A stretch of 64,000 bases of DNA from Taiwanofungus camphoratus (Eukaryota; Basidiomycota; Agaricomycetes; Polyporales; Taiwanofungaceae). The translations under genes were made by a program, and so were the position numbers. The stretch's first letter is position 1; each line of letters starts with the position of its first letter. The stretch lies in contig CP021224.1 of NCBI GenBank assembly GCA_003999685.1, forward strand, positions 124,001 to 188,000. Direction: 5' to 3'. Below, in pieces: positions 51,230 through 59,431 of this stretch. The notes under the pieces were generated by a model. It had not been told where the DNA came from and searched no databases. It saw only the letters and a list, made by a program, of their open reading frames with translations.

Positions 51230-52499
51230 CTATACACGAAAAACATCCAATTTGCAATCCCAGCCGCAGCTGGCCAGTACGCCCTCGTCGTACAGCGACC
51301 AACCGCAGCCCACGACGAATTCCGTATGTGGGTCGTGAATATACAGTAGGTGCGTCCCAGCCGGAGTCGGGGTAGTCGACCACCTGCAAACACAGGTCAG
51401 AGTCCGCGAGGGCCGTGCCTCGACACAGCGAAACGCACACTCTGCACGTCATATCGTAGCTCGCGCTTGCGAGCACGTCGGGTCGGTGAGGGCACCACTG
51501 GAGCTTCCGTACCGCATACTCGTGCCCGACGAGTTGTGCCTCGCACAGCCCGCCGACCGCTTGAGCCTGGGAGGCCTCCGGGCCCAGCTTGATCATCCGA
51601 CAGTCCCATACCTTGACTGTCTTGTCTACTCCTGCGCTAGCGAGCGTGAACGGTCGGTACTTGTTCCAATCCAGAGTCAGTATTTCCGTCCCTGATGCAG
51701 GAACAGTGAGCGCGGCAGCGGACAGGGGGCTGGTGAAGTTGTTGGCATTGGGCCCTGAAGGAACGTAGGATGGTGAACGAATGTCGAAGATTCTCAGGGT
51801 ACCGTCGCTCGAGCAGGTAGCTAGGATATCAGGCTGGTGTGGAGAGAAAAGCGCTTGGTATACGCAGGACTGGTGGGCTAGTAGCGTCGTTATCGAGCGA
51901 GGTCTGTCCGGAGTCCACTGCCGCAGCTTCAGTGGTCGAATGCACGCAGGCTCCGGCGGACGTACCAGTTTCACTGTGCCGTCCCATGACGAGGATATGA
52001 AAATGTCTTTCTGTATATTTGACCAATCTACGGAGAACACCTCCCGGGTGTGCTCATGCCAGGCACGGATAGGCAGGTCCTAGCATGCTTGCTGCACCTT
52101 GAACTTTGCAGACAGAGGCGTGGCTTCTAAAGGCAGCTTACATTGAGCATGATATCCCACATCTTCAGCGAGCCGTCCCCAGAGGCGGTAACGAGCTGGT
52201 TCTCATGGACCTCCGACCAAGCTACATCATACAGCCCGTCCTGCGTATCATAGCTGCTTTCTTGAGCGATGAGATGCGTTCAGACCTCGGGCGACTCACA
52301 ATTTGTCCAGGGATAACCCTGGTACACCGCCCGGCCCTGGCCCGAGCGAAACAAGATGCAGACGACCATTGCCTACCAAACCGTAATTGGCAGCGGACGC
52401 GAGCGCAAGCCGGTTGTTATGAAACGGCGACCAAGCCAGAGAATAATGAGCGAATCCAGGCGTTTGCAAGACGGATGGAGGCGCCGGTGGCCCATTCAT
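51230..52499 (-). CDS. PEX7: Peroxin-7, WD40 receptor for PTS2 proteins
   Basis: A cytosolic WD40 beta-propeller that recognises PTS2 signals and delivers proteins to peroxisomes. I use the ATG at 52499 ([10 protein letters not shown]), just before the conserved [15 protein letters not shown] start of PEX7; an upstream ATG at 52541 is also in frame. Repeats are seen as [54 protein letters not shown] and a C-terminal [12 protein letters not shown]. The last exon must be read in the frame that ends C-K-L-D-V-F-R-V at 51230. It shares a very short divergent promoter with the SIRT4-like gene. Confidence 0.92.
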
Positions 52500-52572
52500 C
52501 GTGGTCGCTATACACACAAGCCTCGGCGTCAGCCTGATCAAGGGGACCCACCGTGCGGGCAGAGTGGATCAC
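52500..52572. promoter_or_regulatory. 73-bp divergent promoter, PEX7 / SIRT4-like
   Basis: The chosen ATGs of PEX7 (minus, 52499) and the sirtuin gene (plus, 52573) are only 73 bp apart. Both 5' UTRs and core promoters must fit here or overlap the other gene. No TATA box is visible. If PEX7 starts at 52541, the gap is just 31 bp. Confidence 0.55.
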
Positions 52573-54202
52573 ATGCGGGTCTCAGTCCCTACCATACCGA
52601 ACGCACTGCTTCGGTCGGCGGATTCAACACAGACAATATCGCCAGCCGCGGCGGTAGAACGCATCGCAGCTTTTCTAGCCCCCGGAAATGTGGGAGTGAT
52701 CACTGGCGCAGGCGTGAGCGTGGACTCTGGCATCAGAGCATACCGCGGGGCGAAGGGGAGGTACTTGAACCCAAATTACAAGTATGCCTGTTCTGAGACA
52801 TCCTGTATCCCGAGTCCTTTCTGATATGCCTGGGTTAGACCTATTTTCGTAGGTCTATCTCTAGCTATAGCAATCCACGTCTGACCGTTTTACAGTATCA
52901 TGAACTCATGGATGAGACCGCGAAGGGCGCCGCCTTCAGGTGCGAGGTTTTCAGTCTGCATTGTACGCGTGTCTGATATTTCATCAGACGTCGATACTGG
53001 TGAGCCCTCTCGAATATCACAGTCTGAGAACGTCTGACGCGTCCGGTCAGGCTACGTTCATACTTAGGATACCCGCCCGTGCGCGACGCCCTTCCCAATA
53101 CCACGCACTACGCCCTCGCGGCACTGCAGTACACATCCTTTGTAAACAGGCTCATTACACAGAACGTCGATGGACTGCATCACAAGGCCATTGCCCATGT
53201 CTGGGATCCTCCGCTAATGAAGGAACAAATACTAGAGCTTCATGGGAGGCTGCGAGTATGCTGTCACACCTTAGGGCTGGCATTTGGAGACTCACGCATC
53301 TACGCCGTCTGATTTTTAGGAAGTGCGCTGCGCGTATGGGCACGTAACAGACAGAGATACATTTCAGCAGCATCTGTCTGCTGCTAACCCACAATGGAAA
53401 GCTTTTGTAGACGAACTGGAAGCGACAGGGAGGCAACCACGGACTAATCCTGATGGAGACGTGTGTTACCAGGAGATAAATTGCATGACAGACCAGTGCT
53501 GACATATCTTGGCTCTAGGTGGTGTTAGAGGGAGTCTCATACGACGATTTCGTGGTGCCCGACTGTCCAGCATGTCTCATGGAAAACCGTCACAGCAACG
53601 TCGTAAGTAAATAGCCGAATAGCTCACATGTCGGAGTTCGGGATATTGATGTCCGAATTCTAAAGCAAAAGCCAGAAGTTATATTTTTCGGCGAATCAAT
53701 CAGTAAGGAGGTCAAAGACCGGTCGTACGTTGCGCTTCCCCGTTTTATTTTCGATGGAGTGTTCACGGGTGTTACAGATATCAGGATATTGAATGCTGCG
53801 ATAGGCTGTTCTTTGTTGGTACCACGTTGGCAACATTTTCTGCGTTCAGGTAATTTTGAGACAGTCACGACCTTGAACACACATTGAGCTTTGGTCAGGC
53901 TCCTCAAACATGCACTTGAATTGCACAAGCCAGTCCTACTTGTAAACCTAGGCCCAACTCGGGCGGATCCCATCCATGGCGTCGAGAAGATCGAGATTGC
54001 AAGTGGAGCAGTTATGAGAGAGGTTGTAAAAGCTATCCTGTAAGTTTCCATGCTGAGATGCCTGGAATTTGATTTACTCATAATTATGGCCAGCGGATCT
54101 GATCATGCTTCAGATCCCGTCGTACAAGGCATGTTAGAAAGTGGTATCGTAAGACCTCCTCCAGAGGAGGACGATGACGGGGCGCCAAGAGCAGTGGGAT
54201 AA
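52573..54202 (+). CDS. Sirtuin, class II (SIRT4-like) NAD-dependent deacylase
   Basis: An NAD-dependent lysine deacylase or ADP-ribosyltransferase. The exon chain starts M-R-V-S-V-P-T-I-P. It carries the NAD motif G-A-G-V-S-V-D-S-G-I-R-A-Y-R-G, then P-N-T-T-H-Y-A-L-A-A-L, I-T-Q-N-V-D-G-L-H and the catalytic H-G in L-E-L-H-G-R-L. Zinc-ligand Cys are seen as V-R-C and C-P-A-C. P-E-V-I-F-F-G-E-S and V-G-T-T-L-A-T-F-S-A-F follow. These features and the S-V-D-S-G-I / G-Y-P-P-V-R words fit the mitochondrial SIRT4 class. A short exon around 52968-52990 (rebuilding R-R-R-Y-W) and about seven introns are inferred. It converges on the next gene with 302 bp between stops. Confidence 0.9.
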
Positions 54203-54504: not shown

Positions 54505-55442
54505 CTATCCGAACGGTGTTACTTCTTGGTCAGTAGCGGGGGACGATGAACGGATGATTGAGTTGACTTGAGGTTCGGCTTTCAATGCTACGGAATATAT
54601 GGCATCTTCATCGTCGTAATCCATATAGCCAGGATACACTGGCGCTTTCAGCTGGGACCATGTCCAACTCTGCCAGCTCTCGAGTGTCTGTGGGATTAAT
54701 TCGCGTGTGGACCGACGCCGAGAGCGCACAAGGTATTCTTCGAATGCTGCATCGGGTTGGCGAATGGAGACATAGGTTCCGGTTGGAGAATCATCGAGGT
54801 GCAACGAGGGCGATTCCTCCTTCACAGGGCCCTCGCTGGACCGGTCGTCGTCATTGTCCGGCGTCAACGGCGGCGTTAGTGAATCAGTCACCCGCCTCTT
54901 TGACGACGTATAGATCTTGACTTCGGTCGGGTACGATGACTGGCATTGCTTCCTGAGAATCAACTGGTACAAAACACGATGGAATTATCTGTGTCACCTG
55001 GTCACTATTCTCCTTAAGCTCCTTGACGAGAACATCAGATCGCCGGAGACAGCGCTCCCTGTGCTTTTGCCAATGGAATGGGTCGTACGAGCTCTTCGTA
55101 GAAAGCTTGATTTTGCCACCACAGCGTTGACACTGGACCATTTGCGGGTTTTGCACAATCGCCATTGGGTCATCTCTGAGTTTCCTTTCTCTAAGTCTCT
55201 CAGCAGGCGTTGCCCGAGAGAGGCCAGACCTGGCAATATCAATTTAGTTGGACTGAGGATGACAAGCCTTGGACTTACCCCACAGACCTAGGTGAGTTCG
55301 ACAGAGACGCTTTCTGAGACTTCTTTCTAGAGGTACGCGGAGTGCGCTGCGGATCATGATCAATTACCATGGGTTCATTTGTCAGGCTCGCATCCCCAGC
55401 CGGCGTGGCGAAGGACACGACTTCGGATCTGAAAACGCGCAT
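54505..55442 (-). CDS. C2HC-motif protein A, function unknown
   Basis: I do not recognise this protein. The start is uncertain; an ATG at 55442 opens M-R-V-F-R-S-E-V-V-S, though the CAG/ATCC just after could be a splice acceptor. Exon 2 carries A-E-R-L-R-E-R-K-L-R-D-D-P followed by C-Q-R-C and, 19 residues later, H-R-E-R-C. That is C-x2-C-x19-H-x3-C, with Tyr at position 12 and Trp at position 17 of the spacer. The same spacing recurs twice in the neighbouring gene. After a short intron the C-terminal exon (54505 to about 54965) is acidic and Ser/Pro-rich, with D-D-E-D and many potential phosphosites. A basic segment (S-S-K-R-R-V) suggests nuclear location. A zinc-binding role is inferred only from the Cys/His pattern. 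Confidence 0.6.
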
Positions 55443-56241
55443 TCAACGGAGTTCAGACTAGTCTGCCTTCTGCGGGGGACTCAGAACTACTCAAAGGCCA
55501 GTAACTTACCCTGTCTTCCTGCTTAGACTAAATTACGGGAGGCCACAATTTCAGGACAATGACTGAGATGAGGGGAATTGTACACGAACCTGCATCTTTG
55601 ATTGAGTGCATTCATGTCCTTGTGTCATACATTGTCAATCAATGTCAAGCAATAAAATAAATCTAGCTAGAACCCACTTCCGACGGAATTTCGTGAGGCT
55701 GAGCGGCTTCTCCGCTTGTACTTGCGACTACTGGTCTGCGAACGACCATTCATGCAAGGGATAGTAATTAATTATCAGAACACACTCACTGATTGCCAAC
55801 CTCCATTTGTCACGTCGCGGTCAAGTTTAAGAAACGAAAGGTATGCAAGAAAGGTGATAGGAAATGTTGCACGCCACAGAGACGCAGAGCGGAAGGGGAG
55901 AAAGAGACGAGATAATTAGGGTGGCCGCGGCACTTACCGCACCGACGCGTTGGCGCGCAGGCGCGCGCGCCAGGGCAGGCTGGCCACAGTCTTTGTCTGG
56001 ACAACTCCTGATCCGGAACTACGGTTCGCGGAAGCAAAAGTCTATATCCAAAAGGCGCTTCAAAACATAAAGATATATATGCAATACCGATCTCGTAAGT
56101 ACAACCAAGCAGGACATTCGTGCAAGCAATGAGAGTGGGTTTGAGTTCAGAGCGATAAACGAGATCAGTAAGGAGTGGCAGGTAATGGATAGAGGAAGGC
56201 GTAGGGATAAACGATCAACAGGTGAGAACATGATTCATGGT
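55443..56241. other. Spacer between the two C2HC genes
   Basis: About 800 bp. No supported gene. GCGCAGGCGCGCGCGCC near 55957-55973 is a short GC-rich alternating run. The 5' end of gene A may extend into the left part. Confidence 0.4.
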
Positions 56242-57579
56242 TCATTCTCGACCAGAAGATAGGCCCTCGCGGAAGCCGCGCACAAACGAGCGAAAAGGAA
56301 GGACAAGCCAATCCAAAAACCCAGGTGCGTCTCCTTCCGGCGCCTCATACCGCTCGCTGCGCGGGCGCACGGAACGCTTCTCCCCGTCCTGGTCGTCCTC
56401 ACGCGGGCGCTTCTCTCCTACACGCGACGGAGAGGACTCTGAACCGATCACAGTAGCGTCAGTTGAAGTCGTGGAAGGAGGAGGCCTTGCAGATTTCGCC
56501 ACTTTGGTGGCGATGGCTGGGGAGACCGATGACACAGCGCTGGCACCGGAAGATGACACATGCTTTGAGGGAGACATATTCCTGGGTACGATTAGACAAA
56601 AGTCCGAGTAAAATACATTCAACAAAGCTGACCTGAAACATGTCGTCTTATGGTCTTCCCAATTAGTCAGATCATATTCCAGTTCGCCCTCTAATTGGAT
56701 CTCGACACCACACAGTGAACATTCAACACTGTGATCAGTAAACTTCTTGACCTGCGCATCATTCACAAGCTGTAGCTTCCTTTGGGCAGTCGCAATGCGT
56801 TTACTGGGCCTGGGAAGGGAGATCGAAATGCTGTCATCGTCGTCTTCTGCGCCTGCGTCCGACTTGAAGTCCGAAGGGTCGGGCCTGCGGATCCGAACAA
56901 GAGTGAGTCGACCCGTTCTTTTATGATAAGTAATCAAAGAGAACGTACTTCTCATAATGAGTATATTTTTTGCCACATTGTTTTCGATGAGTAATCCAAA
57001 GTGCCATTACGTATCTGCGCTTCGGATTCAGTCCCACCCACGCCTTGCAAGCAGTACAAAACACGCGATGGGGCTCGACCTCGCCAGAATGGGGATCGCT
57101 CTGTAGGAATTCCATGCGCTCGGCTTCCGACTTCCGCACCCGGGAACTGGCCTTCGAAGACTCTCCTATTGACTCTCCTATTGAAGAGCGATCATCAGCT
57201 GCAGCATCCGGTGTCTGAGGGCTACTGTGCTTCAATGTCAGTATATAGGTGATACTGTATAGTCTCAAATTTGTACCTAGATATTTGGGACTTCGGCTTC
57301 CTAGAACCAGTAATAGATGCAGGTTTGGCAGGAGAATATGGACCTTTCTCATCGCCGATATCCACAGCATTGGCTGCGATGGAAGACGCACGAGAGTGAC
57401 TGGCCTTCTTCACCTTACTGATAGGCTTTTTACCGGAAACTGGAGAGTCATGATTCTCGCGCTTAGCGCGTGTTGGAGATGGTCCCGGTAAGCTAGAGCA
57501 TCCATGTATTTAATGGAACAGATTTCATGATCAAATCCGAAGAAACAACGACTCACGGCACGTTAACCTTTTTCGGCAT
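56242..57579 (-). CDS. C2HC-motif protein B (two motifs), function unknown
   Basis: Four or more exons from an ATG at 57579 (M-P-K-K-V-N-V-P) to the stop at 56242. The N-terminus is basic and Ser-rich (K-K-P-I-S-K-V-K-K-A-S). The first motif (around 57000-57090) reads C-T-A-C, 19 residues, H-R-K-Q-C. The second (around 56640-56740) reads C-S-L-C, 19 residues, H-K-T-T-C. Both have Ile or Val at spacer position 4, Leu at 6, Tyr at 12 and Trp at 17, identical to gene A. The first motif is preceded by S-E-A-E-R-M-E-F-L-Q-S-D-P, which resembles the region before the motif in gene A, so the two genes are probably tandem paralogues. The C-terminus has a basic cluster (E-K-R-P-R-E-D-D) and an aromatic helix (F-L-D-W-L-V-L-P-F-R-S-F). 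Looks like a nuclear protein. Confidence 0.65.
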
Positions 57580-57877: not shown

Positions 57878-58332
57878 TTATCTGCCAAGCCTCGCACGGG
57901 CTTCCAGCAGCGACATGTTGAGAAATTCGCCATCTCCCCAGGCGAAGAGTAGTGACAAGCTGGGACACCAACTCACCCCCTTTGCAAGTCCACCATCAGA
58001 TTCTGAAATTAGTCCTCCATCCTTCGTTTCTTGATCGTCCGTTGCATCGTCGGGCGTGTCTCTGCGGGAAAGGATGAGAATCTAGTAGCTCTGCAAGACA
58101 GGAGCAATGCGAACTCAGCGTGGCTCGCGACACTGTCTCGTCTTTTCTGATGTCCTCTTGGTATTCAATAATCTCTTTCACCGGTCACAAAAGTAAAAAT
58201 GTGGCATCACCTTGCGCCGTCCACTGTATGTGACTTTGACCGATTTCGAACTTCAACTTCGATCAGTACAAGGTTTTGTCAGTAGTCGCGTACGAACCGT
58301 TCCGGGGAGGACATCCGGTCTTCTTCCATCAT
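57878..58332 (-). CDS. Small hypothetical protein, about 80-100 aa
   Basis: A tentative gene. It starts M-M-E-E-D-R-M-S-S-P-E-R at 58332. A GT..AG intron leads into T-Y-S-G-R-R-K-R and another leads into T-P-D-D-A-T-D-D-Q-E-T-K. The C-terminal exon ends N-M-S-L-L-E-A-R-A-R-L-G-R at 57878-57880. The basic N-half, acidic middle and short C-terminal helix suggest a small nuclear protein. Splice joins were chosen by frame and by natural-looking sequence; one internal segment could be intron or exon. It diverges from the EFM7-like gene with about 230 bp between starts. Confidence 0.35.
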
Positions 58333-58564
58333 ATCGTACAAAATGAACACTAAACAGCGAGGAAACACGATAGCGCTGAAGTCTGCCGTTGACCACGTGC
58401 CACGTGCACGCGGTAGCAACCATCACGTGATTTTATCATTGTTGTTGAAGCGCCAAAGGTTTCGATCTCGACTTGTCGACTGCTGTCGCAATTATTTACT
58501 TGGTCTGATCTATACACTCGAAGATATAAACTGCGTTATTCCTGGCATCGTATTTCTCGCACGT

Positions 58565-59431
58565 ATGACCGATTCCGAAGATATTCTTTCAGAGTCGTTG
58601 CAAACGCTCTATGACTACACCCCCATCACACATTCCTCTGCGGGATCGCTGTTCACCTACAACTGCCCGGAACCCCTCTGGCGACAATATGTTTTGAAGA
58701 CGTCAGAAGCTTTACCGCCTTCTATCATTCTCAGAACACCAGACACCCAATCTGCCCATTGGTCCTTGCACGCGTCGTCCATCTGGGTGTCATCGTTGTA
58801 TGTCGCCGATCACCTGGCTGATCTCCAGCTTGACCGTCATCTACAATCGGCTGCAGCCAGAGATGAAACTCTGTACGTGCTTGAACTAGGTGCTGGAGCC
58901 GGTCTACCAGGAATCTTGATAGCAAAATGCTACGATAATATCAGTGTGGTTTCAAGTGATTACCCTGACGAATGTCTGATCGAGACCTTGGCGGGCAACA
59001 TCGAGCGAAACGACGTTAGGGCAAGATGTTGTGTTGTGCCTTATGCCTGGGGCTCGGAGCCTTCGGTTCTTCTCGAAAAGGTGACTCGGACCCATACACT
59101 GTCTACGCGTGGCTTCGATGCCATTTTGGCCGCAGACACCTTGTGGAATCCCGAGTTGCACCATCTTTTTGTGGAGACGCTGTGTTCGACACTAAGAAAG
59201 TCAGAAGAAGCTCGAATATATCTCGTCGCAGGTCTCCACACAGGAAGATACACGATTCAAGCATTTCTGAACGTAGTCCATGGTGCCGGTCTCGAAGTGG
59301 AGGAAGCAATAGAAAGGGAGATCAACGGAGATGGTCAACGTCCGTGGAAAGTAGAGAGGGGAGAAAATGAGACAGAGAAAGACCGAAGACGTTGGGTAGT
59401 GTGGTTATCTTTGAAATGGGTATCGTTGTAG
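58565..59431 (+). CDS. EFM7: EFM7/NNT1-like protein lysine methyltransferase
   Basis: A class I S-adenosylmethionine methyltransferase of the METTL21/EFM7 group. Yeast Efm7 (Nnt1) modifies the N-terminus and adjacent lysine of elongation factor 1A. A single exon from M-T-D-S-E-D-I-L-S at 58565 gives 288 aa; the 74 codons upstream in the same frame look like 5' leader. Motif I is V-L-E-L-G-A-G-A-G-L-P-G, followed by V-V-S-S-D-Y-P-D, which is characteristic of this subgroup. The post-motif region reads I-L-A-A-D-T-L-W-N. Y-D-Y-T-P-I near the N-terminus and L-P-P-S-I-I-L-R-T-P also fit the group. Cytosolic. It ends R-R-W-V-V-W-L-S-L-K-W. Confidence 0.88.
   Translation: MTDSEDILSESLQTLYDYTPITHSSAGSLFTYNCPEPLWRQYVLKTSEALPPSIILRTPDTQSAHWSLHASSIWVSSLYVADHLADLQLDRHLQSAAARDETLYVLELGAGAGLPGILIAKCYDNISVVSSDYPDECLIETLAGNIERNDVRARCCVVPYAWGSEPSVLLEKVTRTHTLSTRGFDAILAADTLWNPELHHLFVETLCSTLRKSEEARIYLVAGLHTGRYTIQAFLNVVHGAGLEVEEAIEREINGDGQRPWKVERGENETEKDRRRWVVWLSLKWVSL

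Follow-up and report, generated by a model that had tools for sequence, protein, structure and literature searches.

In Ustilago, cellobiose lipid synthesis is described as being regulated by the zinc finger transcription factor Rua1, in which a Cys2His2 motif has been singled out as the conserved part (PMC7673458). The winged helix of Mcm3, according to a review, interacts with Cdc6 and Orc2, its function being unknown at the time of that review (PMC5538431). Here we describe a small family of Taiwanofungus camphoratus genes that touches on both systems. We analyzed a 64,000-nucleotide stretch of contig C5 (C5:124001-188000; hereafter the window), in which two adjacent genes, A and B, carry three copies of a C2HC finger of the form C-x2-C-x19-H-x3-C. 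The observation made in the initial annotation of these copies was confirmed, and its interpretation was supported in part. We read A and B as nuclear regulators whose fingers descend from the second finger of the Rua1_C domain, detached and multiplied, and which probably bind DNA; we put the probability of this reading at about 60%.

Results

Seven Copies of a C2HC Finger at Two Loci

The three window fingers were originally described as sharing a fixed spacing and fixed Ile/Val, Leu, Tyr, and Trp residues, and this description holds: fingers A, B1, and B2 each have a spacer of 19 residues, in which position 4 is Ile/Val, position 6 Leu, position 12 Tyr, and position 17 Trp. Across the six frames of the window we counted the strict pattern 3 times, compared with 0.0 times per shuffled window (200 residue shuffles), and the spacing alone 3 times against 0.07.

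The species' own genome (33.2 Mb in 15 contigs) contains a paralogue, gene C, which lies on the same contig at a distance of about 500 kb. Its product has four fingers of the C2HC type as well as a charged, acidic stretch, and it ends in a winged helix of MCM3 type. A profile built from the three window motifs, as had been proposed, and run on a set of 2848 sequences picks up the gene C fingers with the same or near spacing (E = 6.1e-18, 2.6e-15, 2.7e-9, and 0.14). When five of the seven fingers (A and B2 from the window; 2, 3, and 4 from gene C) served as queries in protein searches of the genome, the window and gene C were the two loci returned. As such a search scores the best candidates only, seven copies is a lower bound. 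One further row on contig C10 (E = 0.36) lacked Cys-x2-Cys and was dropped as a chance match, and searches for close relatives in IMG/VR and among GTDB genome contigs, each with one gene C finger as the query, confirmed no relative.

Sequence comparison thus indicates common descent for the seven fingers at the two loci, whose spacers range from 19 to 21 residues. The spacers of the gene C fingers are 21, 19, 20, and 19 residues long, giving a length of 19 in five copies of the family and 20 and 21 in one each; the last Cys of gene C finger 1 hinges on the choice of splice site. Trp and Ile/Val are found in all seven copies, Leu in six, and Tyr in five. The idea of an invariant motif therefore survives for Trp and Ile/Val, whereas the 19-residue spacer and the Tyr belong to five of the seven copies only. 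Homology across two loci, together with the plausible model of finger B1 described below, supports the proposal of a folded, duplicated domain under selection. A simple local duplication giving rise to A and B, also suggested initially, has become less credible: pairwise identity among A, B1, and B2 amounts to 25-28%, whereas finger 2 of gene C shares 40% and finger 4 shares 43% with B1. Because identity within the window is low and B1 is nearer to gene C, we regard A and B as old relatives and not as the products of a fresh tandem duplication.

A Likely Link between the Family and the Second Finger of Rua1_C

Of the items linking the family to Rua1_C, the strongest is the score that gene C attains against the curated Pfam profile. 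The spliced protein scores 30.9 bits against Rua1_C (PF14616; cut-off 27) with an E value of 3.7e-7 over three stretches. Finger 3 alone gives an E value of 0.0055 and aligns to profile positions 76-121 of 122, while fingers 1, 2, and 4, taken singly, give no Rua1_C row in Pfam. Genes A and B, by exon or spliced, likewise have no Rua1_C row, and the window proteins fail the curated cut-off. The first half of the domain was found in neither A nor B, and the best stretch of gene C begins at profile position 76 of 122.

A search of the genome with Rua1_C found one gene, on contig C14. Its hand-spliced product scores 117.1 bits and covers profile positions 3-122, and its second finger alone scores 47.6 bits over positions 66-122. 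This finger has the form C-x2-C-x23-H-x3-C; a Trp-Val lies beyond the second Cys, and a Trp stands three residues ahead of the His. When an alignment of six of the seven copies (gene C finger 1 being omitted) was compared with the C14 finger using hhalign, the score was 24.7 (E = 4.8e-4, probability 32%), and the register placed C, C, Trp-Ile/Val, Trp, His, and Cys on their counterparts. None of 500 full shuffles and none of 500 shuffles with Cys and His fixed reached this score, the best shuffled values of 24.2 and 23.3 being close to it. With the three window copies alone the match was weaker (E = 0.0043, probability 8%), and 2 of 500 shuffles of either kind reached its score. Tests with hidden Markov models (HMMs) of the sequences are weaker: the model of the gene C fingers scored 12.2 bits on the C14 finger, a value that none of 2000 full shuffles and 2 of 2000 Cys/His-fixed shuffles reached.

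The detached fingers and the second finger of Rua1_C share the C-x2-C, an Ile or Val four residues past the second Cys (preceded by Trp in four of the seven copies), the Trp three residues before the His, and the H-x3-C. Unlike Rua1_C, the detached fingers are without the first half of the domain and stand alone or in series, and a stretch resembling R..ER...L..DP lies ahead of most of them; their spacer of 19-21 residues also differs from the 23 of the C14 gene. On these comparisons, the window fingers are likely, though not certainly, related to Rua1_C. The family had originally been considered one that could not be named. This remains accurate insofar as the window copies fall under every Pfam cut-off, but gene C and the C14 gene join them to the second finger of Rua1_C. 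In the open-licence literature we found no paper that gives the motif and no published description of detached Rua1 fingers, and work elsewhere is possible.

Predicted Fold and Comparison with Other Finger Families

The predicted model of B1, of middling confidence, consists of a helix (residues 8-17), three strands (21-25, 28-31, and 36-39), and a final helix (48-65). In its secondary structure, C31 and C34 lie at the hairpin, and H54 and C58 are on the same face of the last helix. This helix-strands-helix arrangement is compatible with a C2H2/BED-like finger. The weak PDB fold matches of the model are mostly spliceosome entries, together with ZBED2 and ZBED3. We take the spliceosome chains to be C2H2-type U2 proteins; their zinc fingers differ from ours in having just 7-17% identity in the aligned rows, with no PDB sequence match of weight. 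Searched by sequence against PDB, the single proteins gave nothing or rows with E values of at least 0.15, and the best profile match was a short stretch of a PHD finger (E = 0.14).

The layout had been compared to that of BED fingers. At the level of the predicted fold the comparison may hold; as a matter of family membership it finds no sequence support, as the window fingers give no zf-BED (PF02892) row in Pfam at E values up to 10, and neither finger locus is among the nine rows of a genome search with zf-BED (E up to 1). The remaining subthreshold Pfam rows (OmdA, DUF7828, zf-CW, MYND_ZMYND11, Lentiviral_Tat, Aconitase, CDC27, Eapp_C, Zn_ribbon_recom, and others) are read as noise, because each is below its cut-off and they vary between copies. 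The dismissal is least sure for DUF7828, which reaches 18.5 bits (cut-off 25.7) at an E value of 0.0017 and matches gene C in two stretches. NCBIfam gave a single weak row, in one of six copies.

A Winged Helix Match at the End of Gene C

The last exon of gene C matches WH_MCM3_C. The match scores 25.3 bits on the spliced protein, below the cut-off of 27, and 28.7 bits in the genome search, above it. With E values up to 10, the genome search gave one other match, which, by recognition, we take to lie in MCM3. In Pfam, neither gene A nor gene B gives a winged helix match. In the open-licence literature we found no paper that combines an MCM3 winged helix with a zinc finger in basidiomycetes.

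Genes A and B and Their Surroundings

The models of genes A and B (Table 1) are manual splices, and alternative introns exist. For gene A, translation may in fact begin further upstream, and the second intron, just 34 bases long, is uncertain. By exon and spliced, neither gene has any Pfam family above its cut-off. The C-terminal part of the gene B product contains a basic and acidic stretch, KRPREDD...RPR, followed by a terminal hydrophobic segment that could be a candidate binding helix. The neighbors on the two sides are a sirtuin gene, convergent with gene A, and a gene of a lysine methyltransferase family, past the start of gene B and divergent from it.

Table 1. Features of the finger genes and their surroundings; positions are those of the window unless a contig is given
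Feature	Position	Strand	Description
Finger A	55049..55132	-	C-x2-C-x19-H-x3-C, CQRCGGKIKLSTKSSYDPFHWQKHRERC; in gene A
Finger B1	56975..57058	-	C-x2-C-x19-H-x3-C, CTACKAWVGLNPKRRYVMALWITHRKQC; in gene B; R..ER...L..DP stretch ahead
Finger B2	56638..56721	-	C-x2-C-x19-H-x3-C, CSLCGVEIQLEGELEYDLTNWEDHKTTC; in gene B
Gene A	55370-55279, 55229-54998, 54963-54505	-	260 aa from the ATG used; one finger; hand splice
Gene B	57579-57557, 57492-57277, 57224-56949, 56884-56633, 56581-56242	-	368 aa; two fingers; hand splice, GT-AG introns
Hydrophobic segment	56242-56360	-	GFLDWLVLPFRSFVRGFREGLSS; closes gene B after the charged stretch
Sir2-family (sirtuin) gene	52450-54200	+	Several exons; SIR2 35 bits for one exon (cut-off 24)
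Methyltransf_16 gene	58286-59431	+	52.8 bits (cut-off 21)
Gene C	C5 ~679737-681864	+	Four fingers
Rua1_C gene	C14 around 649184	+	Full-length domain

Intron Phases

Across genes A, B, and C, the best-scoring splices put 11 of 12 introns in phase 2, with phase-0 alternatives at two of these. A crude mechanical baseline from other introns of the window gave 6 of 12 in phase 2, a comparison that is not like-for-like, as the scan recovered no intron of the finger genes. Given this baseline, the excess of phase 2 in the finger genes is suggestive and not strong. Introns of this phase would permit exons with a single finger to be copied without a frame shift.

Discussion

We propose that the second, C-terminal finger of Rua1_C was detached from its partner, the first half of the domain, and multiplied. 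This would account for seven or more free copies, spread over three genes, next to a single Rua1_C gene of full length. The finger would probably fold as a helix, a beta hairpin carrying Cys-x2-Cys, and a helix carrying His-x3-Cys around one zinc ion, with the conserved Ile/Val, Leu, and Trp forming the core. The helix would most likely bind DNA or another nucleic acid, and the disordered charged tails may contact other nuclear proteins. We consider A and B to be putative nuclear, DNA-binding proteins because of their descent from Rua1 and their charged, disordered-looking tails. The finger itself is most likely an unusual variant of the known Rua1-type finger and not a wholly new fold.

Several results weigh against this descent. 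The HMM built from all seven copies scores 11.7 bits on the C14 finger, and while none of 2000 full shuffles reaches this value, 5 of 2000 with Cys and His fixed do. The HMM of the window copies alone scores 5.7 bits, which 12 of 2000 full and 78 of 2000 Cys/His-fixed shuffles equal, and the finger is not singled out. The gene C HMM gives 15.5 bits, more than for the C14 finger, to an unrelated-looking open reading frame of the window with CTVCGRGVRLRPP (+ strand, frame 2, codon 13839 onward, ~41520); we take this frame for a chance match because it is without the His-x3-Cys half. The motif is short, the window copies stay below all Pfam cut-offs, and ZBED2 and ZBED3 appear among the weak fold matches. 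All this would suit an independent C2HC family with a BED-like layout, resembling Rua1_C through the convergence of short zinc-finger motifs. Such convergence nevertheless seems rather improbable to us: gene C exceeds the curated Rua1_C cut-off, the shared register extends past the ligands to the Trp three before the His and, in several copies, to the aromatic residue and Ile or Val beyond the second Cys, the hhalign score of the six-copy alignment was reached in none of 1000 shuffles, and the genome search with zf-BED included neither locus. That the motif is a chance pattern in unrelated or non-coding frames has practically no probability left. Nothing was found in its support, though spurious open reading frames are many in the region, and it is ruled out by the shuffled windows, where the strict pattern occurred 0.0 times per window, and by the gene C homologues, with E values down to 6.1e-18; the spliced frames, moreover, are open.

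A different alternative accepts the kinship with Rua1 and concerns the function: the finger might serve as a protein-protein or chromatin adaptor instead of binding DNA in a sequence-specific way. Gene C, through its winged helix, hints at replication or chromatin machinery, and the match to WH_MCM3_C lends this some weight, as do the reported contacts of the Mcm3 winged helix with Cdc6 and Orc2 (PMC5538431). The winged helix match is, however, absent from A and B, and binding of A, B, and C to replication proteins is putative. We regard an adaptor role as possible but unlikely, and prefer to see A and B as DNA-binding regulators with detached Rua1-type fingers.

The intron phases allow a more far-reaching scenario, which we find very doubtful. 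One finger of the two-finger Rua1-type domain may have turned into a unit of its own and spread, in the form of a symmetric phase-2 exon, within a small basidiomycete family. One member would have fused four fingers to an MCM3-type winged helix, yielding a fungus-specific protein that tied sequence recognition to origin licensing or origin chromatin; A and B would then be its shorter partners or competitors.

As Pfam is blind to A and B, such proteins are probably listed as uncharacterised in basidiomycete annotations. The combination of four fingers with an MCM3-type winged helix in gene C is an odd one and directly testable by a replication or chromatin laboratory, and for genes A and B, kinship with Rua1 supplies a function that can be tested.
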